The notes below the pieces were generated by a model. That model ran no database searches, was not told the DNA's origin, and saw nothing but the letters and a program-made list of their open reading frames with translations. Position numbers and translations under genes: made by a program. Of a DNA stretch of 64,000 bases, positions 534-59,955 are shown piece after piece. Source of the DNA: Paramecium tetraurelia (taxonomy: Eukaryota > Ciliophora > Oligohymenophorea > Peniculida > Parameciidae); assembly GCF_000165425.1 (NCBI RefSeq), contig NW_001799377.1:261204-325203 (forward strand), given 5' to 3'. Each line of letters starts with the position of its first letter. Within the stretch, counting starts at the first letter, position 1.

Positions 534-3500
534 TCAATCAGTTATTTGTCTTTCTATTCCTTCTTCAAGTATCTCATCATGGCATGCTTCTTAATTAAAT
601 TGATCACAACAACTTTCTAGCCAATTTATTTGAATAATAGTTTAGCTCTGAGTCTCTCTCCTAAAAAGAGTTTTCTTAAATATTTAATATTGGATACTTT
701 CTAAGAATTAATAATAAATTACTCTTTGAATTTGTTCGATGTTTACAAACAAAACTGGCAACAAAACAATAAATAATTTCCAAGCCATCCATAAAGCGTA
801 AACTGCATTGATACCAGCCAATATCACTTCAAAAAAGATGATGATTGGTTCATTAGGATCAGTAAATTGATTCTTGAGAGATGCAATGACAAGTGCTATG
901 TAAATGGTTCCAAAGGCTGTGAAACTGGAGATGACATTTACAAAATTCTATCTTTTATAGCCATAAGGTTATGTCACAAATGATGCAATTCCATAAATCA
1001 AGACTATAATTAAACATGATTCTGCCATATAGATATTATCATAAAAAAAGATTTCAATAGCTGTTTAGATCAGAATCTTTTCCAACAATCTGACAAACTC
1101 CCAATAATAATACTTTTCTCTGAATTCACCATTAATGTAATAATATTTATACTTTCTGAGTGGTCTCTTATCTTTCTTCCTCATGTCATTTCTAATGTGA
1201 TATAAGAGCATACAAGGAATGTAAATGACAAAGAAAAATAGACAAGGGATGGATATAAAAAGAGTATAGAAGAAATGTTAAGTGCCATAGCAATTTTGAT
1301 TTAAATCTGGTTTAAGATACCTGCCATCTCCAATATCTTTGCAATTCAATAATTGAAGTGTTTTTTCGTAAAAGCTTGGTAGGTAAAACAACCAAATGAC
1401 TAGCCAAGTAGCAGTGTAGTAGATTCCTCGTTTAATCTTTTGGTTTCTAAATAGGATTGTCCATATGAACATGAAAAATAACATTGATGATACTGGTTTT
1501 AATACTTCGATAATGTAATTCACATAAACCATAGGAATGTAATTATCAACATTGATCATGGGGCATTCCAAAGAGAAATCAAAAATAGAAGGATCTTGGG
1601 AATCTTGTAATTAGGAAGGAATGTCAACAACGATTTTAGTAACTAAGGAAGTCTTTTAATAGTAGGCCAAGAATATTTTCATTAATGAATTTAAATCTTT
1701 GACTTATCCTAAGTTGGATCCAATCTTTTTTAAAGGTGGTAATAATTAGTTTAAGCATGGCAATACACATAGGATGACAACATCTTAAGCCAGAAAGAAG
1801 ATGGACATAGTGAAATATATCAGAACTCCAATACTGGTCAACAATATTATAACTAATGGCCATTCTACTTAAGTACAAACAACACACATCGATCTTGTAT
1901 CTCTAGCATAATTGTTATCATAATCACAGGATTAGCACATCCTTCCCATATATCCTAAACCACATTAAGATTAAGAGACTCCACCTAAGCAATTGCTAAA
2001 TTAAGTATCACATTTATAGATCTCCAATGTAGTGATGTTCTCTCTCCAATAATTGGATTCTAAGTTTGTCTCAGCTCCTCCATAGCATTAAATGTGATAG
2101 GTTGATACGAGTGGACACACTTAACATTATCCAGGGTCTTCATCAGTTGGAATACTAAATGAATAAAAGCCTTGAGGACATTTATAACAAATTGTTTGGC
2201 TGTCAAAACTCTATTTGATTTCCCCGTATAAACATTTACGGAATATCACCTTCAGAGTGTAATTGTAATTGTTAGTGTAGTAATAATTGAATTAGTTGGT
2301 CGACTTAACTTCGTCGGATGTAAAGTAATAAGTGAATTCAGTACTCGGGTTCCCAATGAGAGTGAGTCCATCTAGAAAGAATCCAGTTTTTTCGAATTTC
2401 ACTTGGCTATCAGAACTGGAAATGGATAGTGAATAATTTTCATCATTTGATTGAAAGATCTTTAAATAAGACTATTCCTTGTACATAGTGATATTTTCTG
2501 AAGATTTCAATACCAATTATAGAGGCGTGTTCATAGTGTCTCCACTTTTGAAATTACTGATTATATATTCACCATTATCTGAATCTTGTACAAAAAAGTA
2601 ACCATTTGCTGGCTATAGTTTTTCATCATATACTTATTGGATCACTCCTTGATCTACTAAGGGTCCACTCAAATATAATGAAGTTGGATATGAACTTATT
2701 TCACTACCCTCCACCAAGGCACTGTTATTCCAATAAAAGACGCCAGTTATAAACGGCGAGAATACTTAAGTCTTAATTCCTCCTCCATATTTATAAGCTA
2801 TATTATTTAAAAAGTAGCTTTAAGTAATGGTAATCACTGGAAGATCCAATACTTCCGATAATTTGAACTATTAATCAAATGAATTGATGTATAATCCTCC
2901 TCCTGACCCTAAAACTACATTCGAAGAGAATGTGCAATTTATGACCTTCAAATTAGACACGTTCTATAAATCTGCTAGAATGGATCCCCCATCAAATTGT
3001 GCATAATTATTTATCATACTAACATTCTCAAACTATGCAAATTACTCCTTTAATGTCAAGTAAAAACAGCTACCAAAATTCCCCTTATTTCCTTAACATG
3101 ATCCTCCTTTTATGTATGAAAAGGTATTCTTTAAGTAAAATCCACTTGATAAACAATTAGAAGGATCACAAGATAGTTACTTGAGTTATGGAGTTAACAT
3201 ATAAATTGCAGAATCATATAGTTAAATTAAACTCGAATTCAGTTTATAAGCTATCTGACTAATATTCTACAAGGTTAGTGTATTTATACTAAAATAAGAA
3301 GTCATTAAATATAACAAATGCGAATTCTTTGTAATAATGTTGGAGAAGTTGCTTTATTAAATAGATATCCAAGTCTGGTTTGCATAAATGATCTATCCTT
3401 CCTAGGCCTGAGTAGAGAATGATTATATATTCTTTATATTCAATTGAATGGCATTAAATACGCAATGCTCAAGATAGAATAGGGAACCTTAATTTATTTG

Positions 3501-6500
3501 ATAAGGATTAAAGACTGCAGGTGTCTACGTTAAATTATTATATAAGAAAGTATTGTTCTTCATTGTTACGTTGAATAGCTCTAATTTAAAGATGGATCCA
3601 TTTTGGGAGTATATGTTTGAAAAGTTATTTTCTATGAGGATTAATTATTTCGTAAATTTGTAAGGAGCCACATTGGAAATATTGGATACATCAACATCTG
3701 TGAAATTTAAATATGGATAAGTAGCTGTTTCTTCTTTTTGAAAGAATAATAGGCCTCCTTCTTATAAAGAGAATATTGAATTGATTTGATTCTAGGATAA
3801 GGTGATAATTGTATTTTCTAAGGTGTTGTCTATATAAATGGCACCATTTCCAAATGAAAACACATTGTTAATTCTGTTATTTATAAAGGTGATTTTGGGA
3901 CTAGTCGAAGCTGAGTGATACATCTATATTAAAAAGACAGAACCACTATAAGAATATACTTACATGAAATTACTATTCTAAACATTAAGAGTGGTACATG
4001 AAACTTATACAATTCCACCAATTACATCTTAAACTCCATGATATGTTGCATCAGTAGCATTAAATTAATTTACACTTGAAGAACTTAAGGTTATGATCTA
4101 AGCATTCAAAACCAATAAGCTTGTGCCAATACTACAGTTAATATAATTGAAATTAGATTAATCAATAGATAATTGGGATTGAAATCCTTTAAAATATAAA
4201 CCAGTTGATGACACAATAAAATTTTAATCTGCCTACTTTAATTATAGGTTTGCAATTGTAATATATGATAGGCTAACAACAAATTAGCTTTTGACATCTA
4301 TTAGAATTCCATAACAGGTGTTTAACAATGAAGTCGAAGTAATTTGGAAATTAAAAATACTTACTGATGACATCTTGATGCTGCATGAATTGGCCAATGA
4401 GCAATCGTAGTCATTTTGGTTGGATATTGTGATTAATCCATCTTAATATATTGTTCCTTGATCGAAGTAGATCTAGTTGATGTTAATTTAGGGGATCTCA
4501 GAAATAACTAGACTTAATGTGGATGGTGTTGAAAATGTAAAATCATTTAGAGTGATAGAATCAAATGTTTATGCATAAAAAGAACTATTATCTAAGATGA
4601 GGTGTGATGCATCAATTCTTTTTCCAAAAGAAAACTTAAAAGCGTAATTGATTCCTTATTTATATTGATTGTTAAAAAGTTGAACTGTATTTAAAGTAAT
4701 TATTGATTGATAGAATAGATTACTCAGTTGTTGATTGAGAATTGGTGCATTTAAATAGGATGAAAAACTATTATCTTAAATAATCACATTAGTTAACTTA
4801 ATCATGATGGGTTGTAGTGATTCTATTAGGATATTGTTAAAGATTGTGCTACAAAGTTGATTTTAACTAATAATTACATCTGAAGCCTAAAGTTAGTAAT
4901 ATTGAAATAATTAATTAATAGAGGTTGCAGATGAAGAACATTATGAATTAGAGATGGTTACAGTATTTAATGTTAATGAAGTTTTATCTGAGATTTACAC
5001 TAACTATTACAATTTGGAACCTGATATCTAGAGGTTTTCTATTTGAATATTAACTCCTTGGCTTGATTAAATTAATGGTGAGGACATCTCGAAATTATTA
5101 ACTTTGAAATTTTACAATGTGAGTTGATACACATTATCCAAAATTAAATAAGGACATTATTAAGATTAAGCATTTGTAATTTAGCAATTCTCAATATTAC
5201 TTAATATGATATTAGTGAAATATAATTTACAAAGCGGGACTATTATGGTAAGATCCTGAAAATGGACTTCATTAAACTTTTCAATGCTTTTCCTAATGAT
5301 CAAACTAGATTATGAGGGAGAAATCCCTATAAAAAACAATTTCACGCTTTGATTGATCCCCTAATCTATGATGATTCTGTCCCAATCGATATTTTATTTG
5401 TTGATGTTTATTGTACCTCTGACAGAAAATAGATTTTCTAATGTCTAATACAAAATGTAAAAATTGGTTAATGATATTTAAGTATTAATATAAGAGAAGA
5501 CATTGCTGCTATATGTTTGAGTGAATTCGCATTCAACACCAGTTGACCCTACTTAAAAAAACTCATTCAATTGTAAGGTCATTACATACTATTTAAACTA
5601 GATAATTAGATAGTTATTATTCAAAATAAAATACTAGCTAAAATATTGGGTTCTGATCACATAAACAGATTGATCATTCGATTGAATAAGATAACTTAAT
5701 TAGTAAAATGACAAGGTGTACGATTACTATTCTAAGACCAACAAGTAATCTTTATAAATTTGAATTTGTTTGTAAGATTGTCCGGGCTCTTTGATTATAT
5801 AAATGAAGATAATTACATTGCAAAACAACAGGATTGGAGGGATCACTAAGTAGACTTATTTGGATAGCTTATCCATTAGTAATCACTTAATATGTTTGAT
5901 CCTAAGTAACTTAATTCACATTCTGCAATTACAAATTAATTGAACCGGGAGTGTTCTCTTATTAAATGGCTATGCTAAGAGGATAACTATTTAAGTAGTT
6001 GCTTGATAATAGAACTTAAATGGACGTACTTGTGATCAGCATTTAGACAATGTTACTCTACAAATTTTATTAGTTTGTGGGAGTATTACTAAAGACATTG
6101 TTTGTAAAACTATAAAAGCTAATATCTTAGTCCAAAGCATAAGCCACATAGATTACATTATTATATTGAAATTATTAGATCATTTGAGTGGTGTAGGTTG
6201 CAACATTCTAAGATTGAAATTAATTTTATAAATTGTATGTATAGCATTGATACTAGGTAAACTAACAAGTGAATGATGTTTCAGACAATGAGATTACCAG
6301 ACCATTTGCATAAAGAATCAAAATTATATCAGATTAGATTATCTGTATAGCAGGATTGTTGTTATTATTGATTGTTATTATTTATTGTAATTAGAACCAT
6401 TGATTAAATACTTGAATATTGCTATTGGTTGAACCTACTTGTAAAACATATTATGATTTTAACATATATGATGCACTAATGCTTTAAGTGGAGTAATAAA

Positions 6501-7602: not shown

Positions 7603-10600
7603 TCATTTTTTTAAAGTACTCTAAAATGGATTCATTTTGTAATCAATTTTTTTCTTTTTCGCTGCATTCTTAAAAGTCATTTCTGATTCATTTCTTTTAT
7701 GCGATTTCTTCATCTTCTCCGCTTCATTTGTCTCCTCAATCTTTTAAAGTGTCTCCTCCGTTTACCCCTTCCTATGATGAACTAACTTCTTTTCCACAAT
7801 TATCTCATCCAAGCTTCTCAAATCAAAAACCAACCTTTAATTTTCTTTTCCATCCACTTCTGTTGATGCCTCTATCACTTATAGTTTTTATGGAGTTTCT
7901 CTTTAAATCAAAATCTCAGGCTGTTATTATTAATCCTACTCTCCTTCATTGATTATTTTCACCTAAGAATAACTCCCAAGTAAACAAGCTTATTTTGTTT
8001 ATAATAGTTTTTAAAAGGCTTAAGAATTGATTACTCTCTTCTAAAACGAATTTGCTAAGTCAACAAATTTTTCTCTATTTTGTAGATTTTCAATTAACTT
8101 TTTCTTAAATTTGTTGAACTACTCAATCAATTCAGTCACGTTCGCAATTTAGTAGACCATAGCAATGCTTCCCCTTTTCACTATAGTCTCAAACTTATTT
8201 TATATTTAAACCTCCTCATTGTCTGAAGATAATTATTTCCATTATAAGATATTTTAGAACTCTTCTATTGTTTATTCAATGTTTTTGAAATGCTCAAATA
8301 TTTAATTAGTGCTTTTCTATTTCATGAAAATACTCAGTAAAATAAGCTAGCACTTTAATACATGGTGCTACTTTAAAGGAAATTATAAGTATCTATCGTG
8401 AATTTCAATTACACTATGAATTTACGCTTCTATTTCTTTTGCACTCAGTTTATCCAAAGATAAGATCAGATACTTATCCTAAACCAAACCGTAAATCTCA
8501 TCCTTTTTGCTCTTATTTAAAGCTTTGATCAAATCCCCAAGTAATTTAATTGCCTTACTCTATCCATCTGTTCTCATCAAACCCTAAATGTGAATAATCT
8601 ATTTTCCGAACTTATCCAGCGACACCGATGTCTTCATTGTAATTGGCTATTTAAAATACAATGTTTGAAATGTCTGACCCAGAGATTCATTTAATGTTTA
8701 AAATAAACTCAAATCTTCCTCAGATCTCACTTGCTGTTTACTTTTTATTCTAATAAAAGCCTTCTTCAATTTTGAAATAATTTGAATTTTTTTAGCTTAA
8801 TAATGCATTTGGATTACAAAATTATTACACTTGGCATAGGTTAGTGTTCTATTAGAACGTTCGATAAATCTAATAGCACTTAAATATTATCCATTAAATT
8901 CAAAGATAGACCCTATTATAAACTACAATTTAGATATTATCTTCTTCTTAAACTCTTTCCCATTCCTATACTACTAATTCATATCATTAGCATAAAATAA
9001 TGCAATGTTCATAGCATGACCTATATCATCTTGCAGAACATGAATCTATAATTACTATAACACTAGAAACACTACTTCTTCTGCATAAATGTGAAATGAT
9101 CTTAACATCAATTCTTAAGCTCTTTTAAGACATGATAATGAATTTTCTTAATCATGCATATCAAAGTAACTCATCCCAAGTAGGAACTCTACTTTGGCTT
9201 TATTGCTTGTAGCCAAATTTTTAACGCTTACATCTTTATATCTTATTTAGAATGGATTATACTCTGATTTATCTGCAATGTCACTTTAATCTTCTACCTA
9301 CTTATATTATGGAAAGAACTGATTGTAAATTACTAAACTCATTTCTAAATTAAGCATAGCTGAAATTGGGGCTAAACTTAACCTTGCTATCTCTCCACTC
9401 ACTAAGAGTGAATAACCATAAGACAATGATGCTTGGTGCTGGTTTTTCAATTAAAATCCTATTGCTTTCTAGATTTTGCTGATGGCTTAAAAATAATTGT
9501 CTGAATGAAGATAAGACAAAGCTGACCATACTTATAACATCACATGCTTTTTTTGTTCAAGTAACCCCTTTGCTTAATTTTAACTCCTTAATCTATGATC
9601 CATTTGCATTTTCTGTTTCAGTTGATTAGAAATACATTTCGATAATTAATTTAAAATCACTATTGGCTTTTTTTAAGATAAAGTCATAATCTAAAATAAC
9701 AGAGTAATATGAAAATTATCAACACTATCATCTTTAACTTTTTTAATAAGATCAATCACCTTGTCCATTTTTTAGGATACCCTTATTAATTTCTCCTGCC
9801 AAGAATCCTCTCGATTCTATTCTTTAATAAAATAGAATATATTCAGTATTTCCACATAACAATTTTAAAATATTGGCTTCTATAAATTTTGAAACTTTTC
9901 GTAATAGGCTTGAAATCTGTTTGAATAGAGTAATGACTGATATATTATCTCCATGTAGGTTTAATCAATCTCAGATAGCTTACTCTTATTTTGAGCAATT
10001 TATTTGTAATCCTCACAGATATTTACTGGAAAACTTTCCATTACTTTTGCTTCGTTTAAATCATCCAAATCAACAGAATTAGAATTAGACAATTTTTGCT
10101 ATTCAACTTATTGATCCATTTGCTTTGAATCTTACTAAAAATCTATTTCATATAATTCTTTTCGAAGACTCTCGACAACTTATTTGAGATCCTAAATAAA
10201 TTTATCAACATCTGCCAGATCATATGAATATATTGCCATTTTAATGAATTCAAGTAAGTAACGATCTGAATTGTGGCTGAATACCTTCTCAGCCAATAAG
10301 CAATAATTCTTTTCATCGTCTAAAATCTCTCCATGCTCTTTTTTCAAATTTGCAAAGTATTTTTTCCTAATTGTTATTATGGTTCTTAAGTTTTAACTCT
10401 AGACTTTTTTGAAATAGATGATAAGATCAACAATTGCAAATAAATCCTTCTTGAAACTTTTAACGAATGCCTTATACTTCTTTTCTTCCAAAGTCTTTAA
10501 GGCCACTTCTGGATTTTGACCAAATTATACGAGTATTTTCATTCTACCAAAGGATTCTATTTTAAAACATTTATATTTTGGAACATAGAATATTGTCGAT

Positions 10601-11646
10601 AACGTGAAATTAAGTCTGTAAAGATATTTCTCATAGCAACCAATAAGAATCTATATTAAATTTAATGACAGTTTTTTATGTAAGGTGTTGCTTAACTCAC
10701 TTTTGTCCTTCAGTAAAATCTGTTAAAGATCTTTCAGAGAATACGATAGTTTATCATAGAACAATGCCAATCTATACATATTAGGTTGATCAAATTAGGG
10801 AGGTATATCAAACAAAAAAGTAGTATTGGTAATAAAAACTAAATACTAATCCAGGTTTTGGTGATAGTGCTATAGGATTAAGTGAAATAACACATTCAAA
10901 AATCTTGATTGTTGCTCAATATCTACTACAGTTATTATTTCAAGCATCTCTAAATTGGAAGTCACAATATAATCATTTTAATTTTTTTGATTTGCATTTT
11001 ATTCATGAATTACACTCTATTTTTTCTTTAATTTCATCTGATATTATTTGAGTGAAATGATCCTTTCAACATTAAGCAAATTCTCAAACGAAATAAAACT
11101 ATTTGGGCTTTCCTTATCTATATTGAAATAATTATCAGTAGAAAAAAAAGTAGGTATTCGAGAATATGAATTTGCCTCTTTAAAGGTATCTGGTTTCAAA
11201 TGGAAGAGGTCAAAATCTGCTTAAGTGATCAGGATTCCATTTACATGAGCATAATGTACACAATCTTTAATTTTTGTTCCAATTGTGATACTATAATATT
11301 TTTTTTGGTCATCTTGGATTAATTCCACAATCAAAGAGAAAACAGTAAGTACGTGATCGGACCTTCTATAATAATTAGCATCATCTTTTGTGGACTTTGT
11401 CTTCTTTTTAGAGGCCTTTGCCTATTAGGGCTCACTCTTCTGAACTTCTTGTTCAGTTTAATGAATTGTAACTTAGTTTCCATTTGTGTTAAGTGTAGAT
11501 TATTGGTTACAAATAGAACGTCTCGTTGTATGTTACACTTGAAGCTCCTCCTCTATCTTGAGTTATTTCTACTCAGCAACTGTTTTCTCTATTTATAATT
11601 ATATTCCTGCTTCCTTATCTGATTTTTTCGAACCACAAATTCCCAT
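7603..11646 (-). CDS. Uncharacterised 1347-aa helical protein with possible N-myristoylation and TPR-like repeats
   Basis: One uninterrupted exon in the ciliate code from ATG 11644-11646 to TGA 7603-7605. The N-terminus MGICGSKKSDKEAG has Gly2, Ser6 and a nearby Cys, the textbook pattern for N-myristoylation plus palmitoylation, so membrane anchoring is likely (inference). After a Gln/Lys-rich linker the chain is almost entirely helical. The central region around residues 650-900 has degenerate TPR-like helix pairs (for example KVEFLLGMSYFDMHDQENS, FIIGSIFEFNGQYLSAIRF). The last 100 residues are charged and basic (AAKKKKIDYK near the end). I recognise no named family. The ORF length without TGA and the consistent amino-acid use make it a real gene. 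Confidence 0.85.
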
Positions 11647-13279
11647 TAATATTTAAATAATTGATTCTTCTCATAGATTATCCTAAATATTTAAAGAAAG
11701 AAATTAGTAACAACGATAATTTATTATAAAATTCAAGTTAGAAACTGAACTTAAATAATTTCATCTCCATTCTCTTTCCTTTAGAGGTTCAGTACCCTAA
11801 ATAAGCTATAAGCAAGGGATAGATTGAACTAAATTCATATAGGTAAAAAAACGATAATAATTCTAAAATAAATTATTTAATTCCAATAAATATAATGTAA
11901 TTTAATTTTTTTTATTTTTTATTTGTTTAAATTGACCCGCACACATATTTTAATTTTTAAATAAAATTTATGATTCTCTCAAATACTTGCTCTATTAACT
12001 AACCAATCAATTAAACTATTTTGATGTATCTTTGAGTAATCCCATTGTAATTTTAGATAAAATTTAATTTATCCATTCAAGGAGAGATATACTTTAATTT
12101 AAAATTTTTTAAACTTCTTTTGTATGTTATATTCTTTTCAGGCAATTAATTTGGATAGAATTTCAATTCTATATAATTATCCTTATTGGCATAACCATAT
12201 TATGTTTTATATCATAGTATATATGTTTTCAATTTCAACTTCCTAAATAATTGCTGTCAATGTGAAATTTCATATTATAAAACGATTCTATTCTGATTCA
12301 GTTGATATTAATTATTCATCTTCGATTATCAAATAGTTAAACTCTATTTTAATTTATCAAAATGTTATTAATTTAAAAACACAATATGAAATTTAAAAAA
12401 ATAAAAGCTATGCCTCTTTAATACTTACTATCTATGATTATTAAATAATAGTTTTTGAAATTTCTTATTTCATTGAATAATTTTCAACCTAATTAAATAA
12501 ACTTTTTGATAAATAAAAAAAGTCTATAATCTTTAGATATAAATTCCCATTTAGGTTTATATATATATCTAAATGAAATTGTGTTAAATATTTGAACATT
12601 TCATATTTTTCGAGTAAATAATTAAATTTGAGATTTATTATATTTCAGAAAATATTTGTACGATCCATTATGGATATTCATAAAAAGCGATCCAAATTAC
12701 AATTAAATTCGGAATTTCATTTAGTAAGAGGCAATTTATCTAAGTAAAAAGATTCAATAATAATAAATATGGTTATGGCAATCAACCAGAAATTCGTGTT
12801 GATGTTTGAATGTATATTAATACGATCTAAGATAAAATGAAATAAAAATAGTAGGTATGTATATAGGAAATGAGTAAGAAAAGTTTAATTCACAAATGGG
12901 GTGGTTAGTAAGGTACTTTGTATTTATCTATATAATTAAATAACTTCTCGTTGATTACAATACTAATTCTTTGGATGTTATTTTAAAATTGGAGAAAGTG
13001 GAAATTGCCTCAATGCAAGGGTTGTTAATGTTAACTCATGATTGGATAAGAAATTGGATATGATAAATTTAGAACTGAAAAAAAGTTAATCACAAAAGAA
13101 CTCGAATAAGTTTTTGAAGTTACAAAGTGATGCTATGTTAAAGAAGAATTAATAAATTGAAATATTATTATTAATAATTAAATGACTCACAGGTACTAGT
13201 ATGGTTATAAGAAGTCTTACAGTAAGTTATTTGAGATGAATTGTTAGTTGAAACTCCGAAACGCTATTAATATCAATCA
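11647..13279. other. AT-rich intergenic region with an unresolved coding-like patch
   Basis: 11650-12900 shows only AT-rich, low-complexity sequence. From about 12950 to 13260 all three plus frames contain coding-like pieces (for example KLITKELEQVFEVTK in one, DVILKLEKVEIASMQGLLML in another). These could be extra 5' exons of the PP2C gene or a small separate gene, but I could not join them with plausible introns. Confidence 0.35.
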
Positions 13280-14204
13280 ATGGATCGATTACCAAAATTG
13301 CCATCGATTACTTCTGATGCTAAGTAAGAGTGTAATCTTATTCAGACAGTCTTGGAAAGTAGGTCGGAAGGAATAATAGACAAATTTGGGAGTTATGAGT
13401 TTGCCTGGTTAATTGATGAGTGGAAAGTAGAAGATTAATTAGGATGCTTTCATTATAGAGAAGAGACTTAACTTTTATGGAGTGGCTGATGGACATGGAG
13501 TGAATGGTGAACGTGTTTCTGGGTTTATTCGGATCACTCTACCAAAATATATTGAACAAAGTCTTTTAGATCCAAAAGAGACATTGATAAAAGGTGTTTT
13601 ATAGACAAATAGTGAATTGGTGAATAATTCAAAAATTGAAACTGTCATAGCAGGTTCAACGTTGTGTTGTGGTTTGATCAAATTAAATAGATTATATATA
13701 GCAAATGTTGGGGATAGTAGATGTGTTATAGCAAAGTAAATGGGTAATTCTTGGTAAACCATTGAATTAACAAAGGATTAAAAACCATCTCGAGAAGATG
13801 AGGCAATAAGAATATTAAAGGCAGGTGGACGTATAGCTGCTCAATAAGACATTTATGGTAATTAAGTGGGTCCACTTCGAGTCTGGTTAAAAACATTGAA
13901 TGCACCAGGACTAGCTATGACTAGGGCAATGGGAGATAGATTGGGTGCATAGGCAGGAGTGATAGCTACACCTGAGATCACAGAGTATGAATTAACAAAT
14001 GAGGACAAAATCTTGGTATTTGCTTCAGATGGGATTTGGGAATACATGTCTTCTCAAGAAGTAGTTTCAATTTTGAGTTATTGTTACGATAAAAATATAA
14101 GTGCTGAATTGGCAGCATAAAAATTACTAAATTTAGCAGTGGATGCATGGAAAAGAAATAGTTTAGCCAGAGATGACATTACTTGTGTAGTCTTATATTT
14201 GTGA
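13280..14204 (+). CDS. PP2C-type protein serine/threonine phosphatase
   Basis: Metal-dependent (Mg/Mn) phosphatase, 300 residues after removal of a 22-nt intron at 13324-13345 (GTAAG...TTCAG). Motifs in order: KINQDAF (43-50), VADGHGVNGE with metal ligand Asp63 (61-70), AGSTLCCGLI (118-126), LYIANVGDSRCVIAK (131-145), AMTRAMGDRLGA (206-216), FASDGIWEYMS with metal ligand Asp243, and the terminal LARDDITCVVL with Asp292. All catalytic positions expected of an active PP2C are present. The start MDRLPKLPS is the first ATG in the frame that precedes the intron. An upstream coding-like patch means an N-terminal extension cannot be excluded. The substrate is not indicated by sequence. The gene converges on the GTPase-Hsp20 gene, whose stop lies 114 bp away. 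Confidence 0.92.
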
Positions 14205-14318: not shown

Positions 14319-16256
14319 TCATTCATTTTAACTCATAAACTAATTAGGAATGATATCATCCTTATCTTTCTCATATACAATTTTTAAAACTCCATTTTCT
14401 ATTCCAAAATGTTTCCATTTTCGTTCGAAGTTTTCTGGAATTCTAAAACTTAATGTAAATTCACCATATTTTCTCTCCTACTTTTTGATATGATCACTTT
14501 ATTCTTCCTAATAGGGTTTCTTTCGGTTTCCTTTAACTATAGTCACAACATTTTATCTATACATTTCGATATCTTCTTCGCTTATTCCTGGTACATCCAT
14601 ATAAATAGTATATTTATCATTAGCTATGATATCTGTGGCAGGTGCAAATGAATCTGGTCTTGCTAATATCAGACCAGATTGATCAATATTAGTTTAAGGG
14701 ATTTTTAATTGTCCATTATATAAGTGGGCCTCCTTTTACACAATCTTCTTTACGAATTAATTATCTGTGTCAATCAACTTTACATTAACTTCCCTCTTAA
14801 AATACTATGTTAATTTGCTGGTTGCATATTACAAGATACTTTCACAAACAGAAAATTATCTGTTAACAGGTACAAATACTGATTTTAACCAATATTTCAA
14901 TAATGAAAATACCCAAGGATTTACATCTAATCCTAATTAACTATCATCACTAACCAAACAGACATGTCTTGTATATTAGGTTTTGAACCATAATACATGT
15001 TTAGCTTATAACTCATTATTTCTTGGATTATTGGCTGCAACTTTGGTTCTTTGAATAGATCCACCAGTAGAATAAATTTAAGTCACTTGAGTTATCCAAA
15101 CATGTTGTAAGATTTCAGAAGTCTCAATTTCCTTCAAATTATGAACTACTATGATTTCTCTAAATGTCTTTGAACTATTCTATATTTGTCTAGACAATCT
15201 ATCTAAATATCTCTGATCTAAAGAAGTGAAGTCATTTACAACACAAATGAAGTAATCACTCAATTCAAAGACAAGATCTATAATAAAATGCTCAGTTGCC
15301 TCTTTCTCTACTATGCTTAAAGCAGATTAAATTTTTACAGGAGAGTAACTACCTGCTGTATCAACTAAAATTAACTAAGTTCCTGAATCAACATCAACAT
15401 GTTTGAAAGATATCCCTTTAGTAGTTACTTTTTTTCCTGATGGTAAATTTGATTGAGTTAGATTATTAAGAACAAATGTCTTCCCTTTATCATAAAGACC
15501 AACAACTGCCACTGTGGCACCTTCCCATTTAATTGAAGACTTAAATTCATTATTGTTATTCCCTAAACCCACTAAATCCATTTTAGCCTGGAATGGCTTG
15601 CTGATATAAACAGGCCAACCCAATTGAACATTGTTTATCAAATCAATGTCCAATATCCAATCGTACACTTGAGTCTCATCAATACCATCTTGAGTATTAT
15701 ATTTTATTGGATCATTAAAGATATTATCTTAGATTTTATCATACAATCTTGATTACTCTTCGAAATCATAGCTAGTTATAATATTAGATTAGATGTTATT
15801 ATTTTCCATATTCAAATTATGATTATTCTCTTTGAATTATAGAAATCTTCCAGTCTATCTCAAAGATCGAGTCTTTTAAAATTTTTGTGATGTTTCCAAC
15901 TCTTTTAAGGCATTCCTCATTTGGCTATCTAGATTGGCTTATTGTTATAACCTGTTATTATATCGGATAAATTACAGATACTCCTCTTGTTGATTAATTT
16001 CATCCATTATCAACAATTTATCGTTATTTCGTACACTCATTTCATAATTAATCATTTCCATTATCTCATACAATTCCTCTATTGATCTTGCTTCTTTTGT
16101 CATTTTATTGAATTATTTCATAATCTCCTCCTCCTCCTATTAGATATCTTTCAGCATTGTAACCAGTGTCTGAATTTTCTATTTCAATAGTATTCTTACT
16201 TAACTTTTATCAGCAATCACTTATTTTAAAGACACCTCTTTGAATAACGATGACAT
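14319..16256 (-). CDS. GB1/RHD3-like GTPase fused to a C-terminal Hsp20 (alpha-crystallin) domain
   Basis: Single exon, 645 residues. Residues 1-190 are coiled coil, including an EEEEIMKQF patch and Gln/Asn-rich stretches. A GTPase domain of guanylate-binding-protein style follows: P-loop GLYDKGKT (253-260), a switch-I-like VTTKGISF (277-284), G3 LVDTAGS (297-303) and a degenerate G4 VVHNLKEI (370-377). Residues about 534-629 form an Hsp20-like beta-sandwich: YTIYMDVPGISEEDIEM, then FTLSFRIPENF, then NGVLKIVYEK carrying the G-x-L core motif. A large GTPase and a small-heat-shock domain in one chain is unusual. It suggests a nucleotide-regulated chaperone or membrane scaffold (inference). The absence of TGA across both domains rules out two adjacent genes. 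Confidence 0.88.
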
Positions 16257-23175: not shown

Positions 23176-24438
23176 TCAAGTAGATGATTAAGGTTTGTAA
23201 TTTTTAAAGAATTGTTTTTACTCATCAGTCATAGTTACATCAATTTACTTTGCATTGTTAATTATATTAGTAACATCAATTTATTATTGATCTTTGTTAA
23301 AGCCAGTGAAGAATTCTGAGATTTAGCCAATATCTTTTTAGTACAGGCAATGTCCAAATTCACTGAGAAATGCGATACTCAGTTTAATGATTGAAAATAT
23401 ATCAGTGGCCAAAATAAAGTCCCAAAAGAAAATCACAGTATCAATTGGAAACGTGTATAAAAACTAAGTTAAAATCCATTGCCAAATATACTATTAATCG
23501 CTTATGCCTTCATCGTAGAAATGTTGATAGAGTGCTGGTAGTTATGCATTAAAATTTTTTAAAAACACCTAACATAAAGCTTTGGTGTAATTAAAGTTGA
23601 CTCTGTAGATCTCCCACCATAAGAAGAGAGGATTAGTATTGATGAAATGTATTAACCAAAAGACTTCCTCTTCTTTGCCTCCACTGACAATCAAGGAGAA
23701 TCCAACTATATAATTCATTCCTTATACATATCCAATGTCTTCATTGAGGATGGATAAGGCCTTGAGAATTGAGAACAATTGTTATTGACCCTAATTGTAG
23801 TCCTTGAAGTGGTCATGCGAAGGGAAAGTCCGATTAACATCTTTGCCAATGTCTTCAAGGACTTTTTGAGAAGGAGTCTGATTTTTCAACTTTGAGTAAA
23901 GAAGGGGATCATAATCTTTGTTCCTATAGACCTGAGCCATCCAGAAATTCCATCTATATTTGGAGATGGCTCCATCCATAAGAATATTTTTAAAATCTTC
24001 GTTATTGATTTCTTTTAGTAGGTAAGCATCCATAATATCTTGATTTGTCAATTTAAAAGGGCCATCAAGTGATTAAGCTAGCGACATTAATATTTTTTTA
24101 GAGAACAGCTTGTTTGAATTGAGTTTTGGCTCTTTACATTGATCATCTTCATTAGTCTGTTATTCTAATTACTCAATGGATGTTGATCGTCTGAACAAAG
24201 CAATATATGTCTCTTCGTTTATAACTTCATATTTTTTTTGATAGTATCGATTCCATTTAATTTGTTTCTATGAATAAGCTGGATCATTTTTTTCAATTTC
24301 TTATTGAAATTCTTCACCAACATATTTGTGTGTGTTTGTAGTTTTTGGCGGCGCATTAGGAGTTGGTGTATTTCCAGGTTTTGCACTACCTCTGATGACA
24401 ATCTTGTTTGTTTTATCTTTTGTACAGATAGGTCCCAT
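23176..24438 (-). CDS. TBC-domain Rab GTPase-activating protein
   Basis: Single exon, 420 residues. After about 150 residues of linker (with the basic motif KWNRYYQKKYE) a TBC domain begins at SKYRWNFWMAQVY. It carries both catalytic fingers used to accelerate GTP hydrolysis by Rab proteins: IGKDVNRTFPSH (197-208, Arg finger R203) and IGYVQGMNYIVG with the Gln finger Q239. Later TBC landmarks are FWLIHFIN, LPALYQHF, WQWILTQFLYTFP and WDFILATDIFSII. So the domain is complete and should be active in membrane trafficking. The target Rab cannot be read from sequence. The N-terminus MGPICTKDK follows in-frame stops and is the first ATG. Confidence 0.92.
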
Positions 24439-24471
24439 TTAACTTAAATAATTTATATATATGTAAGAATA

Positions 24472-27428: not shown

Positions 27429-30400
27429 TCAATTTTATAAGCTTAAAATACCAGGAATTTCCTTAAGCATAGTTTAGGCATCTGAGTTCTATTAGACATT
27501 ATCATCTTTATTCTCCTCTTAATTAATAGGTTCTAGAAGCTGATTTTATACAGAGTCTGTTTTTTAATTTTATGCCTTTTGCATTTTTTTGAGAGCCCTA
27601 TAGTTCTCTATGATATTCCTGAGTTTTGGGTCCTCCATCACGTCGATGTAATCCACAGGCTACGATATGATAGTATTAAAAGGTGCCTTGCATTCTTTAA
27701 TATAATAAATAAAACAAAGGCGATCTTGGAATTTCTTAAGAGTATGATAATTTTATAAATTGTTCATGATTTGTTGATTTCTATTATAATATTATTAAAT
27801 AATCTTACTCAAATTGATCCCTCATTAGTATCCATTTAGTAGCAGGTTTTAACTTCTTTAAGAAATTATAATATATTAAGGTCAATCCTACATTTCCCTA
27901 TTTAGTGCCAAGGCATTATTTGGAATTCTTCAATTTATCTGCAAGATTAAAAAGGTCTCCAGCCACAGCTATATTTTTGGAATAAACCCATCCTACAATC
28001 ATTTTGTATTTAGACTTGTTTTGAGTAAAATAGTCAACAACTGTTCTAACAGATGAATAATTTTCACAAGTAAGTGTAATCAATTCTGGCCTTGGAAGGA
28101 ATTAAGCATATTGATGATCATATGTTAACAATTATGGTCGTATTAACCATGATTCTCTGATCTCATCTGGCCTCTTCTTCAATAATAGATTCAGTTCTCC
28201 TATATGTATCAATTATTTTTTCTCTTTGATTTTAGATATTTCAATCTAGGCCTAGGCTTCAGGACATTATAACAATGATTAACCTTATTTTCTATATTGT
28301 TAGAATAGCATATCCTACTTTTTTTGTTTTTCTGATTCATTATGGTACAATGATTTCTCATAAAGTATTGATGGAATTTATTAGGGGGCTACTTCAACAA
28401 TTTTAATTGCCTATTATTGTTATTTTTTTTTCTTTTCAATAATGGCTTATTAATAACTCTGAGATTACTTGTTTGTTGAGCGATCTTTCACTTTCTTAAT
28501 TTCTTCATATGTTAAACTATAATATATATAGATAAATACTTTTTCTATTTGTTTAATTTGATGATTTCTTGAACATTCTAAATCTCTTTTAAGTATTTCT
28601 CTTTATTCAAATTCATTTCCAAAAAGATTTATGATTCTAAGTTGAGTATCGATTATTCATTCACTTATCTCCAATTTTTGAATCTCCCTAATAATCTTGT
28701 GAATCTCTCTTTCGATGCTTTTCTCAAATCTCCCCAAACATCCTCTACTTTAGTTGACTATTCCTTTTTATTTTGAATTTTCTCCTCTTTCAAATGTTTC
28801 TTATTTTATGTTTCTTAATCAAGACATTGATTCACATTCTGCATGTTTTCTTTCATCCACCCTATCCATTCAAAATCATCCCTTAAACTCTTAATATTAA
28901 TTTATATATCTTACATAATCTATAAATTTTAGATCTGCACTATTCGTATTCTTTTATCTCTGTTTATTAATCTGCCCTAATTTTTATTGCCATTCCTCTC
29001 CTCCAAAAGTAACTAACAGCTCAACTTCATTCAGTCTTTCTTACATCTGATCATTCGAACTTCTTTATTTCAAACATCTTAAGGATTGTTACTTGATCAG
29101 ATTGTACATCAATTATAGACTAAATCCTTGAATTTTCAAATAGCAATGACAATAACATGTTCGTATTTTTAGTAACTATTAAATATACAGATTATTATCA
29201 GGCTATTTCTGTACAAGTTCATTATATTGAGACAGTACTTATTTTACTTCCTAAAGATCATCTCCCAAATCCTTAAATTTGAGTCCTTGAAATTACTTAA
29301 CTTGATTCTATAATTCACTCATGATTTCAGCATCTGGTTTATTCTCCAAAAAGGTAAAGTATTATTAATATGTTTGCAAATTGTTAATCTAATCTTTATT
29401 TCTTAACCAAATTAATCTTTATTCTTAATAATCTTTGATTTTCTAATTCAAATCATCGTAAATCTTTATATTTTCTCTTAATTTAACCAATAATTGATTA
29501 TTTGGTTTGATATTTGCAATTTGAGCGCTGTTGATCAGAGTTCTTATGCTTAGAACATTTGCATTTTAATCTAAGAATTCCTCAGCCTTTTACATCCAAA
29601 GCATCTAAATATAGAATGTCCATAATCTACTTTACACATTTGGTTCATAATAACAATTGTTGTTTATTATTTAAATGAATATGTATTGCTCTGGAGCTTT
29701 TGAACCCTCCAATTTGATCTCAAACTCTCTCAAAGACTGTAGCCAAACTTCATATTTAGATTTTATCTTTTGCATCAACATCAAGTAATAATGATCTTGT
29801 ATCTAATTATCACTATTCAATAATTTCAACACTTAAACAATATTGTATTTCTTTTTTCCATTTTATGCTTCAACATTTTTAGATTCATTCAATAATTTCT
29901 AACATTCGTATCTCCATTGTATTTATCTAAAACTCAATACAATTTATGATATCTCATCAAAGACTACTTCTGGGATCTTCACCTATGCAATAAGTTCATT
30001 ATTAAAATCTAAATCTCTAATCTCCTTCACTCTCTATAACATTACTTAAATATTATCTTGTCTCTTATAAGCTACATAAAATAATTGCCGAATAAATTCC
30101 ACCTATTATTGACTCTACTTAATGTATTATTCAAGATCACCAGATTTCAGATATCTATATTAATCCAAATTATCTAAAATCCTAGGCTTACTTTCAACTA
30201 TTTCAATTGCCTACATTAATTCTGTCTTACGAGTTGAAATATCTAATTCGAATCCATTTGAGTTACATAGCTTTTCAATATCTTCCAATTCCTTCAGTGT
30301 TAAGATCTCCTTCAATTTATGATCAAGTTCTTTGAATTGTTTAAGCTTTTTTTTGTAATTCTCTAAATATTCGCTTGTCAATAAACATTTATCCATCAAA

Positions 30401-32532
30401 GCTATTATATCTTAACAAAATTAACTTGTTATTTTCTCTTAGCTTTAACATTTATTGTGAATTTCAACCAATTAATCAAAGACTCTTTTAATCACTGGCG
30501 ATTCTTAAGCTGCTCTTTAGATATTTTCAAAACTATAAAGTCCTTAAGACTCTCTTTCAGTCAATCTGCAGTTTCTATCTATTTTCGATTCCAAGTCTGT
30601 TCTAAATTCCTAGATCAATTGAGCTTCAAAATGAGATTAAATTTGATTTAACAATTTGTCACTATTAAAAGGGAATTCTATGATTTATTAAAAGTTATTT
30701 TGGATATTTACATCTTCGAGAGTTATGCTTTCAGATATTAGTTTTTCTATTAATTTGACACATCCCATTGTAATATTACTTTTATTGGCCATCTTTTTTA
30801 ATTCAAACAATTTCTCCACAAGTGGCTTACTTTTTTAATTTTTCATCAATATATATTACTTGTAAACAGTCAGTTCTAATTAGCTCTCTATGAATGGAAC
30901 ATCCCATTAAAACTTCGCTCCTTCAAAGAGTTTTTTAAATTCTTTCTTAATATTTGATGATACAATATAGCGATTAATTAATTATAATAGAGTTTCATTA
31001 GGATGGACAAACAATTTATGTGGATCAATTACGCATTCATTCAAGAGATTCAATGTAGTTTCAATTAAAAAACCATCACCAATCCCTTTTTCAATTTTAA
31101 GTTTCATTTATTTTCGTGACAATATATATGATTTTATCGCTTTTCTTTCCTCTTTATCGAATGAATACCCTTTGTTTTTTAATTAAATTGTTAATTCATC
31201 AAAGAAAGAGGCATTATTTTCTAACTAAATCGGAAGTATAGATAACATTTACTATTTCAGTTCTTCCAATAATTTCTACTTCAATAATATTTTATCCAAT
31301 TGAATTTCTGCAGATGGTTTTATTGGCATAGAAGCTAAAAAGGATTTTAGATGTTTCAGATTCTAATAGTCATCTTAAGTTAAAGGTAATCTGGGTAACT
31401 TTCTCATAATAGCCTCCATGTATAATAATAAAGGTAAGACATCCAATAAATGAATTTTTAATATTTCTTTCGGAATTACTAAATCCTCTAAACTCAACAA
31501 GATAGGATCATCCAAATCAATTTTATATCTTCTGCTGCTCCATCTCTTACAAGATTCACAAACATAGGAATCTTGTTTGATTTGTTTCTTTTTAATGCAC
31601 ACAAAATGAAACCACTCATAACAATGATCACATTACACCATTTGTTAGTTATTTAATGATTTTCTACAAATACAAAAAATGACATGACTCTCCATATGAG
31701 ATTAGCAATAACCTTCAATTTTATCATTATCTGACCAAAATTATTCTTTTTTTTTGGGTATTGAATAATTTTGAAAAATTGATTCTAAATTAATTAATAC
31801 TTCATTCTTCAATTGACTGGTTGATTTGTCATTCTTTTATTGAACATCAAAAATGTTATCTATTGAAATTGAAAAGGCCTCTTAGATATCGTCTAATTCA
31901 TTTTTAATTTCCTATTAATCTACTTCTATGCTGTTTGGATCCTAATTATTGCCATGAAACCTAAGATTTAGAATCCATTATTCATTTTCAATCAACTCCA
32001 ACTCTTTCTAAACTCTCTCTTTCATAATACAATGTGGATGTGCAAAACCATCACAATCCAAACATTTTATTGATGCTCCAGGCTTATCACAATTCAAGCA
32101 TTTTTCCTTTGTTTTTTTATCTTTCTACTCTTATAAACCAAATGACATAGTATGGTAATCTCTCACTTGTATACAAGGATCAAAAATAGCACAGAGTACA
32201 TGTACATACATACCATTATATCCAGAAACTCTCCTAAGCAATCCATCCTACCCACAAATGTAACATACAGGTTTCTAAACATTATCTTAGCAAGGATCAC
32301 ATTCTTCATCTAAATTATTATACCCATAACAAAATCTATGATATTTTAATTTACATTTTTGGCATTCCTTCTATTGACAACCTTTATCTTTTCTTAAGAA
32401 GTTCAATCCGCAAACTGAGCAACTCATTTATTATTATTATTTCTACTCCTTAAATACTTTTTATAATTCATGCTCAAATATTACCTGCCATTGTATTAAA
32501 TCATTAATCTAAATCAATCTATCACAACCCAT
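27429..32532 (-). CDS. Large PHD/extended-PHD finger chromatin protein
   Basis: About 1675 residues with three introns (25, 23, 28 nt) near the 3' end. The N-terminal 350 residues hold Cys/His zinc modules: CSVCGLNF ... CQKCKLKYHRFC ... CDPC; CYICGQDGLLRRVSG then YVHVLCAIFDP; CLNCDKPGASIKCLDC and GFAHPHC (an extended-PHD arrangement); then a second PHD finger, FCICRKSLNNQQMVQCDHC ... WFHFVC ... YVCESC. Such fingers read histone H3 tails. The next 1100 residues are long helices and coiled coil, comparable to the helical region of KDM5/PLU-1 type proteins, but I see no JmjC domain. Near the C-terminus APFNTIISQPVDYIDVMEDP resembles a bromodomain ZA loop. Start MGCDRLIQIND is the first in-frame ATG; an alternative joins an upstream exon (MNYDQSYVTYGD...) through a 20-nt GTT...TAG intron. 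Confidence 0.8.
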
Positions 32533-33226
32533 TATTATCTATACAAAGGACTTCTCAATTACCACTTTTCAACAGTCAACATTATCCAATTATGATCAAT
32601 TATATCCCCATATGTGACATAAGACTAGTCATAATTCATTTATTCTTTGCCTAATTTTCATATTCATAAAGCACGAGAACTGTCCACATTCACTCGTAAT
32701 ATAATACAATTAATTATAATATTATATATTAATAAGAAAATACCAGTCTCCTTTGGCTTTATTATGAATAATGATAAAAACTAAATTTTCACTTGCTTAT
32801 TTACATTTTTTCATTTTTTCAAATTTATTCTAAATTTCAAAATGGTTTTATATTTAAGTTTAAAGTCTAATATTGGACCTTATTACAAAATTTAATAAGC
32901 ATCCTATTTCACTCATTTACCCATAACCTTTTTATGGTCAAATTCGATTGTAATGGCTCTAATCTAGTTCTATTTTTACACATTTTAATTATTATAAAGA
33001 ATAGAGTAATTTATTTTTAATTTAATTTAAAGTCATCTTTTTCAGTTATTTGAAAATTTAAAAATTTCCACATTCATGAAGACTTTCATCTAAATTCGAA
33101 TTGTCTAAGTTGTAATGAATGTGGTGGTTTTGTCTATGTAGTTGAAAATGTTAGGAACAATTATTAGATACATACTATATTTTATTGTTTCTTTGATTCA
33201 ATTTAAGTTAATAATATTTATATTTA
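32533..33226. other. Divergent spacer with zinc-finger-like open segment
   Basis: Between the PHD gene (minus) and a small plus-strand gene. On the minus strand, directly upstream of the PHD start, frames contain ECGQFSCFMNMKIRQRINE and LVLCHIWGYN, which resemble a PHD half-module but are broken by TGA codons. The rest (about 32700-33220) is AT-rich with nothing recognisable. Confidence 0.4.
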
Positions 33227-58124: not shown

Positions 58125-59955
58125 TCAATTTTTTTTAAAATCTGTGATTGCATCAATGAAATTCGGAAAATCATCTTTATGGATTTCGATTACTGAAGTT
58201 TCAAAACTATCTTGTCTGAATTATAGATTCAATTCCTAGACTTTTCTTAGGAAATATTATCCAAACTAACTAAAAATGATTAGAATGAATAGGAATACTT
58301 TTTTTCTTGTCCACTAAAACTCATTCCTCCGACCACTCCAACCACCATGAATAACTCACCCAATTGATTAACTAGAATGACTGACTTATTGGATTATTTG
58401 TATCCCTTTTCTTTGTAGATATCCATAAGGAGGAGAGCTAATTTTTATAAGCTTTAAGGATGTTGAAAGAACTTCTTCTGCTAAGGACTTTCATTTTTCA
58501 AAATTCCATATCTGAAATGCTTGCATGGATAAAGCTCGTTGTTTTCGATAAGATTGTTGGCTTCATCAACCAGAGCAGCTTGGAACTCCAAAGCCATTTG
58601 TACTCCTTGTTGGAACAGGTCATCAGATTTACTAATAAGAATAGAGTATTGAGTTGTACCTGCCCAAAGTGTCTAAGGCACAAAAGAAATTCTAGAATTT
58701 GGCTGCAGTTTCAGAGGTCTTCAACTTTTCAATGACTTCAGAACATTGATGTTGCATTAATTGTTTAGAGAGCAATGCTTATGGGTATTCAAGGATTGCA
58801 TTAACAGCGTAAACCATATCGCTGGCTGCAATTTATATTTTAGTATCAGATTGGCGAACAAATGATCTATAAAGAATATCATCCATCTGAAATTTAGATG
58901 CCACCTCAGCAATTTAGGATTTCAATATTTATTTGTATTTCTAATTCATGTATCGAAAATCCTATTTTGCTTCATTTAATGGAATACCTAATTTAGCCAT
59001 AAACTCTTCCAATCTTTTGTTGTCCCTATCCTTCCACAATTTGAGTTTAGTTCCGACATAGGAAGAATAGTACATTGAGTTATAAAGTGATTGTTGTCTC
59101 ATGAGCAAGAATTTGTATTCGTTTTCAATGAAGACTCCTCCAATCTTCTTAGCATCTCCTTGAGTTTCCTCGAAATGGATGTTCAATCTGATGACTTCAT
59201 TCTGCAATTCTTCAAAAATGAGATCATAATTCTTTTGGTTCAATCGCATATGAATATAGGCATCAGTCAATCCCAGAATTGCATACCATAAATGATCGTT
59301 GCAATCGTGATTCATTTGTTAAGCCAAAGTATAAACCACAGTCGAACTTGGTCTGCTGTAATAGGTTCCTTGACTGTAGTAATCTTCATGCATTTGAATG
59401 AGTTATTTGCGAAGACTTCTTTGCAATTTCTGCTATTGCTTCCTTTGAATTTATGATGAATGAGATCCTGAGTCGTCTTCATCGATTGAGTCTTCGTCTC
59501 CATCACTCATTTCTTTGATTTCCTCCTCTGGACATTTCTCCAGTTGTCCCATGCCATCATCTATAATATAGATACTCTTCTCGTTATTCACATTGTTGTG
59601 ATTGATGGGCTTGTGACTGTCAAATATGAAGAACTTGATGTCTCCCTTTATAAAGTCACTCATGTCATACACATTTCCACAATTTAATAAAATTATACTC
59701 TTATACATATTCCCACATTTCTGAATTGCTTCAGTCATTTCAGAGTACCCAGAAACTGGGATCATTCTGAATTGCAGGTTCTCCCTATTCAACAAGGACT
59801 ATCAATAGAATTATGACAATTACAGTGAGAATCCTTAATGCGCATATGGCGTCTACGTCCAAAGATACTATAATGCATACGGAGGTCTTGCCAAATTCAC
59901 TTCTCTTTAAGATTTTTTGGAAACATTCCTTTATATTGTTTAAGAGGATTTTCAT
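58125..59955 (-). CDS. CDC45: CDC45, replicative helicase (CMG) subunit
   Basis: 582 residues after three introns (29, 28, 25 nt); human CDC45 is 566. CDC45 joins MCM2-7 and GINS to form the CMG helicase at replication forks. Landmarks: N-terminal DHH-like strand VSLDVDAICALRIL (30-43), MIPVSGYSEM, FIFDSHKPINHNNV (101-114) and YIIDDG. An acidic loop follows (EEEIKEMSDGDEDSIDEDDS, 136-155), as in all CDC45. Then YYSRPSSTVVYTLAQQMNHD, LWYAILGLTDAYIHM, SLYNSMYYSSYVGTKLKLW, LEEFMAKLGIPLNEAKQDF, SDMVYAVNAILE, FFCALDTLG and the C-terminal DSFETSVIEIHKDDFPNFID. The first exon start (59953-59955) is the only ATG before the conserved block. Divergent from the exportin gene 216 bp away. Confidence 0.95.

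Follow-up and report, generated by a model that had tools for sequence, protein, structure and literature searches.

A conserved Paramecium tetraurelia protein family that joins a GTPase to an Hsp20 domain, and its possible role as a GTP-controlled small heat-shock protein

Organization of the locus

The window, by which we mean the whole stretch of 64,000 nucleotides of Paramecium tetraurelia DNA that was analyzed, contains on its minus strand a coding region running from ATG to TGA at positions 14319..16256. The gene was read with TAA and TAG as glutamine codons and TGA as the sole stop. Read in this way, the region 14319-16256 consists of a TGA-free frame, 645 codons long as genomic DNA, that holds both a GTPase and an alpha-crystallin (Hsp20) domain.

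A protein phosphatase 2C gene (Pfam 3.4e-41) is located at 13182-14204 on the plus strand; it is convergent with the GTPase-Hsp20 gene and about 114 bases separate the two. The closest duplicate of this phosphatase gene (89%) lies on C160. No GTPase-Hsp20 copy was found there and, because C160 does carry the phosphatase duplicate, a GTPase-Hsp20 duplicate has perhaps been lost from it. The other genes recognized in the window encode CDC45 (58626-59801, minus strand, 1.6e-95), a RabGAP-TBC protein (23179-24471, minus strand, 1.2e-49) and a PHD-zinc-finger-like protein (28879-32568, minus strand, 4.5e-22). Two very long open frames on the minus strand, 537-5882 and 7606-11670 (1782 and 1355 codons from stop to stop), gave zero Pfam matches at E 0.001.

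The initial annotation described the GTPase-Hsp20 gene as a single exon of 645 codons. The open frame is indeed present, but homology to two paralogues, C153 and C191, predicts three exons and a protein of 630 residues. In each paralogue the beginning of the gene is interrupted by two GT..AG introns of 23 nt, and at the same places the window gene has a predicted GT..AG intron of 21 nt (16179..16199, minus strand) and another of 24 nt (15952..15975, minus strand). As both are multiples of three and lack TGA, they are invisible when the gene is read as an open reading frame; their retention would add 15 residues and no stop. Removal of the two predicted introns gives the 630 residues mentioned above, compared with 628 for the C153 and C191 products. 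The window gene is therefore probably composed of three exons separated by two tiny in-frame introns, rather than of one exon.

Both domains are present in one polypeptide

Pfam profiles gave significant matches for both halves of the window protein, which bears out the earlier proposal that a GTPase and an Hsp20 domain are combined in one chain. The HSP20 model matches residues 546-634 (2.5e-14; score 53.6 bits, cut-off 20.8). Two models match the GTPase part: MMR_HSR1 at residues 248-356 (9.4e-8; 32.6 bits against a cut-off of 21.9) and GBP at residues 247-303 (3.8e-5; 23.4 bits against a cut-off of 21.1). Dynamin_N stays under its cut-off (0.011; 16.2 bits against 27). The spacing of 230 residues originally given between the two domains needs to be specified: the Hsp20 match begins about 170 residues past the G4 motif and about 244 past G3.

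A family of at least nine genes with a constant domain order

A search of the 69-Mb genome with the whole protein (E up to 10) returned 18 pieces, all of which fall within nine loci, a copy number that is a lower bound; no GTPase copy lacking the Hsp20 part was detected in this search. The nine copies form four subfamilies: a trio composed of C175 (the window gene), C153 and C191, and the pairs C199/C101, C225/C224 and C39/C4. In the tree, the three pairs and the trio are each recovered at 99-100% ultrafast bootstrap, and the grouping of C153 with C191 inside the trio at 88%.

Both domains are present, in the same order, in all nine copies, and in five of them (C175, C153, C191, C39 and C4) a single open exon covers both. 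For C4, the spliced-alignment script proposed a 27-nt intron between the domains; we discarded it, as the reading frame continues uninterrupted through the proposed intron, which contains no TGA. Also set aside were a 45-nt intron proposed by the script in C225 and C224, and all N-terminal models of C39 and C4. C225, C224, C39 and C4 entered the alignment, selection and motif analyses without their N-termini. The HSP20 model matches seven of the nine rows of the alignment of contiguous exons, with the C225 and C224 rows stopping at an intron ahead of the Hsp20 part. Spliced Hsp20 ends, scanned separately for C224 and C199 only, matched at 1.7e-12 and 1.2e-8, respectively. In the genomic DNA, all nine loci exceed the Pfam cut-off for PF00011; in four, what matches is limited to pieces interrupted by introns, at E-values of 0.003-0.010.

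No relatives were found in phages (with the window protein as query), plasmids (with the C39 member), viral contigs (with the family alignment) or contigs of prokaryote genomes (with the family alignment and the C39 member). Distant viral or prokaryote relatives may be missed, because the searches of these contigs are seeded by between two and six short peptides. Models of anti-phage systems did not match the family either.

Selection acts on both domains and on their junction

Recent duplicates were compared using a Nei-Gojobori script applied to the pairs C153/C191, C199/C101, C225/C224 and C39/C4. In that order, dN/dS was 0.002, 0.011, 0.00 and 0.016 for the GTPase core, 0.005, 0.015, 0.00 and 0.049 for the middle part, and 0.016, 0.004, 0.007 and 0.021 for the Hsp20 part. 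Constraint is weaker at the N-terminus, with 0.066, 0.013 and 0.023 for the first three pairs, the only ones for which it could be measured. Synonymous sites are saturated between the window gene and C153. The low values in the core, the middle part and the Hsp20 part point to strong purifying selection on both domains as well as on the region that joins them. Between distant subfamilies, conservation is highest in the GTPase core: C175 and C39 are identical at 81 of 150 positions there, versus 46 of 103 in the Hsp20 part.

These results bear on the explanation that two separate genes have been read as one, or that the fusion is dead. This explanation, to which we give almost no credence, conflicts with the single TGA-free frame, with the nine copies of constant order, and with the near absence of amino-acid change despite high synonymous divergence; we rejected it on the basis of the nine same-order copies and the near-zero dN/dS. 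The architecture, a GTPase and an Hsp20 domain in one chain, is secure, and the fusion is conserved as a unit and is no accident of gene modelling.

The GTPase domain

On the basis of Pfam and conservation, the GTPase domain is placed at 14847..15530 on the minus strand (unspliced residues 243-470), with boundaries inferred from conservation. Its motifs are all encoded on this strand. The G1 motif or P-loop, GLYDKGKT (15477..15500), is identical in the nine copies. The G2 motif in switch I, TTKG in the window protein (15414..15425), reads TT(K/R)G across the family, and G3, DTAG (15351..15362), is present in all copies as DTAG(S/T). The G4 motif HNLKE (15129..15143) had been considered degenerate. 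The sequence HNLKE is present; however, its core N-L-K-D/E is fixed among the nine paralogues, with HNLK invariant and the last position being E in five copies and D in four. Since HNLK is invariant, G4 is conserved rather than degenerate.

To which class does this domain belong? All nine copies have features of TRAFAC GTPases, namely GxxxxGK(S/T), a switch-I threonine, DxxG, and an NxxD-like G4 with Leu in place of Lys and ending in D or E. MMR_HSR1 matches the nine members at E <= 1, and in a genome search in which 92 of 150 candidates were scored, 7 of the 9 loci exceeded its cut-off. The GBP model placed eight of the nine loci just above its cut-off in the genome search, and in another scan it scored the C39 member at 20.0, under the cut-off of 21.1. 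Among PDB sequences, the G domain had non-significant matches to Era, FeoB and HflX (0.14 to 0.85); with a family profile, guanylate-binding protein 5 was matched weakly (0.0022) and Era at 0.013. GBP-type GTPases are present elsewhere in the genome (L024-L031; C211, C2, C37, C189, C159, C178), with a best Pfam value of 1.6e-60. Profile-profile comparison of the family's G domain yielded a probability of 97% over 61 columns against 11 mixed HSR1-type loci of the genome and of 91% over 101 columns against six of the eight retrieved GBP loci, both sets having been chosen by an open P-loop exon. A profile search of the retrieved non-family loci, from which the family's own loci had been removed, gave weak matches, the best at 0.00065. 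Judging from its sequence, we assign this G domain to the TRAFAC GTPases as a separate family.

The domain also differs from well-known GTPases at positions involved in catalysis. In Ras, the residue following DxxG is Gln. In this family that residue is Ser or Thr, and the position of the Arg that the six GBP loci have in the P-loop is occupied by an invariant Asp. Neither catalytic helper is present, which suggests that the family would hydrolyse GTP slowly unless assisted by a partner.

The N-terminus and the question of membrane association

The N-terminal region, corresponding to spliced residues 19-113 (15873..16202, minus strand), is predicted to form a charged helix. Its hydrophobic period is 3.50, a periodicity reached by 1 of 1000 shuffled sequences, and in the five copies tested for heptad periodicity between 0 and 5 of 1000 shuffles matched the observed power. 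Proline and glycine are absent from residues 19-113 in the trio. The N-terminus is thus a probable coiled coil. No hydrophobic segment or membrane helix was detected in any of the nine copies as modelled, the highest mean Kyte-Doolittle value over 19 residues being 1.36. The suggestion that the protein might remodel membranes consequently finds no support in the sequence.

The initial annotation also named the GTPase GBP-like. One rival explanation is a GBP/dynamin-type GTPase that assembles with itself on membranes and uses the Hsp20 part as an accessory targeting device. The resemblance is in part real: GLY..GKT and the switch-I sequence TKGI are similar to those of GBPs of the same genome, and the GBP model scores near its cut-off, on the upper side for the window protein and for most loci. 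Against this, MMR_HSR1 scores higher, the C39 member falls short of the GBP cut-off, the P-loop Arg is replaced by Asp, G4 has the form N-L-K-D/E, and there is no hydrophobic segment. We consider this explanation improbable.

The Hsp20 domain

The alpha-crystallin domain is encoded at 14355..14621 on the minus strand, as determined by Pfam and by alignments to Hsp16.9B and other small heat-shock protein (sHSP) chains, and includes an NGVL motif. When only sequences were searched, the PDB relatives of the C-terminal part were small heat-shock proteins, with a best value of 1.1e-8. At the level of sequence, the Hsp20 part is collinear with Hsp16.9B, and also aligns to chains that bear the name low molecular weight heat shock protein, across the beta6-loop region and on to GVL. 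Plant and bacterial sHSPs swap the beta6 loop between subunits; the segment of the family that aligns with it is identified by the position that we take this loop to have in the alignment to Hsp16.9B. GV(L/I) is present in all nine copies.

The domain is followed by a short C-terminal tail (14322..14354, minus strand). sHSPs oligomerise through a C-terminal I-x-I motif. A strict I-x-I/V is absent from the tails of the family, which read DDIIP/DDIVP, DDI at the very end, DDQIV, or ESILP/DSILP.

Search for other small heat-shock proteins and for heat-shock elements

We then looked for sHSPs encoded separately from a GTPase. None was detected in the genome: the matches of PF00011 (E up to 10, nine places) and of NF042420 (nine places) are confined to the nine GTPase loci, and the Hsp20 segment of the window protein used as a query identified 13 pieces, all inside these same loci. 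CS/p23-type domains were found elsewhere in the genome (13 matches, 11 of them above the cut-off), showing that small domains can be detected by this approach. Genome searches with NF041799 and PF17886 gave zero matches and so missed the nine known loci too; the absence of free sHSPs is for this reason provisional, as diverged or intron-split ones may be overlooked.

In the upstream regions of the seven genes other than C39 and C4, heat-shock elements are not in excess over chance: a single two-unit site was found in one of the seven. Heat induction is therefore not indicated.

Discussion

The reading that we tentatively favor, with a confidence that falls a little short of even, is that the proteins are soluble multi-domain sHSPs whose alpha-crystallin domain is controlled by the GTPase in the same chain. 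According to this proposal, the alpha-crystallin domain, with its retained beta6-loop segment, would act together with the coiled coil at the N-terminus to make dimers or larger assemblies, and these would hold client proteins that are partly unfolded or in the course of assembly. The GTPase domain would be the switch: its GTP- or GDP-bound state would alter the packing of the G domains, and this repacking would expose or hide the surface that binds clients, or open and close the assembly itself. The inferred elements of this proposal are that the proteins oligomerise, hold clients and hydrolyse GTP slowly, and that nucleotide is coupled to chaperone. In its favor are the Pfam matches of both halves, their joint presence in nine paralogues, the low dN/dS values, the confinement of the Hsp20 matches to the nine loci, the collinearity with Hsp16.9B, the heptad periodicity of the N-terminus in the five copies tested, and the precedent of Get3d, a protein discussed below. 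Against it speak the lack of an excess of heat-shock elements, the absence of a strict I-x-I motif, the limited reach of the search for free sHSPs, and the report that in Get3d the alpha-crystallin domain is dispensable for client binding (PMC10248533).

Its main rival assigns the alpha-crystallin domain a structural role. As a dimerising module it would pair or autoinhibit the G domains of a GTPase switch that functions in assembly or trafficking, which we regard as possible but somewhat doubtful. The superior conservation of the GTPase core between subfamilies fits such a role, as do the missing I-x-I tail and the lack of heat-shock-element excess, and a regulatory role is one of the options proposed for the alpha-crystallin domain of Get3d (PMC10248533). 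On the other hand, dN/dS values of 0.004-0.021 show that the Hsp20 part, too, is very strongly constrained, and the searches, of limited reach in that NF041799 and PF17886 missed even the nine known loci, detected no further sHSP in the genome to take over client holding.

Returning to the GTP-controlled chaperone, we consider it worth testing because all nine copies strongly conserve the two halves and the searches detected no stand-alone sHSP. A conserved family of this kind, in a genome where free sHSPs were not detected, would offer a direct test of whether a nucleotide can gate an alpha-crystallin chaperone. A more far-reaching version, which we think unlikely, is that the sHSP system of P. 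tetraurelia has been rebuilt as a GTP-gated one, with all alpha-crystallin sHSPs fused to a GTPase that exists only in the fusion. Many small heat-shock proteins are ATP-independent chaperones (PMC10248533). If the far-reaching version is true, client holding, which is ATP-independent in ordinary sHSPs, would in P. tetraurelia be timed by GTP.

Comparison with known systems

The family shares with plant and bacterial sHSPs (Hsp16.9B and low molecular weight heat shock proteins) the alpha-crystallin domain, the beta6-loop-aligned segment and GVL. Unlike stand-alone sHSPs, its members are GTPase fusions of 630 residues that have no strict I-x-I tail and no excess of heat-shock elements.

With the GBP/dynamin superfamily it has in common the P-loop context GLYxxGK(T/S), the switch-I sequence TKG(I) and a GBP Pfam match near the cut-off. 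The six GBP loci compared, however, have an RTGKS P-loop (for example GLYRTGKS, with CTKGMW and DSEG), where the family has GLYDKGKT, with Asp for Arg. GBPs further contain D(S/T)EG where the family has DTAG, and the family has no transmembrane segment. The G4 motif of GBPs and dynamins is of the RD type, whereas that of the family is N-L-K-D/E. Era/HSR1-type TRAFAC GTPases (MMR_HSR1) are the Pfam family that fits the G domain best, and share with it a G4 that starts with Asn. Their consensus is NKxD for G4 and Asn in the P-loop; the family differs from them in N-L-K-D/E, the P-loop Asp and the fusion to Hsp20.

The pairing had been noted as one that no well-described protein has. We found no GTPase with an alpha-crystallin domain, but Get3d pairs another P-loop NTPase with one (PMC10248533). 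Searches of the open-access literature for the pairing, for sHSPs and GBPs in ciliates, and for Get3d gave no paper whose title or opening abstract lines concern a GTPase-Hsp20 protein; the accessible portions of PMC9416717 and PMC3143110 contain nothing on such a fusion. A looser link is reported in PMC2963123: in gas-vesicle gene clusters, an Hsp20 gene accompanies some of the homologues of ArsA.

Get3d, as described in PMC10248533, is a Get3/ArsA-type ATPase with a C-terminal alpha-crystallin domain, whose role there is unclear. Like the proteins described here, it carries the alpha-crystallin domain C-terminal to a P-loop NTPase within the same chain. The two differ in that Get3d combines its Get3/ArsA ATPase with a helical client chamber, whereas in the family a TRAFAC GTPase is preceded by a probable coiled coil at the N-terminus, and in that Get3d lacks the beta6 loop, whereas the family keeps the segment that aligns with it. 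Domains of the Get3d type were not recognized in the family: there was no ArsA match in the window protein, and PF17886 (ArsA_HSP20) gave a best E of 0.12 in two of nine members. By anatomy, Get3d is the nearest described design, with an NTPase of a different class. To the sole described design of a P-loop NTPase with an alpha-crystallin domain that we encountered, Get3d (PMC10248533), the P. tetraurelia family would add a GTPase.
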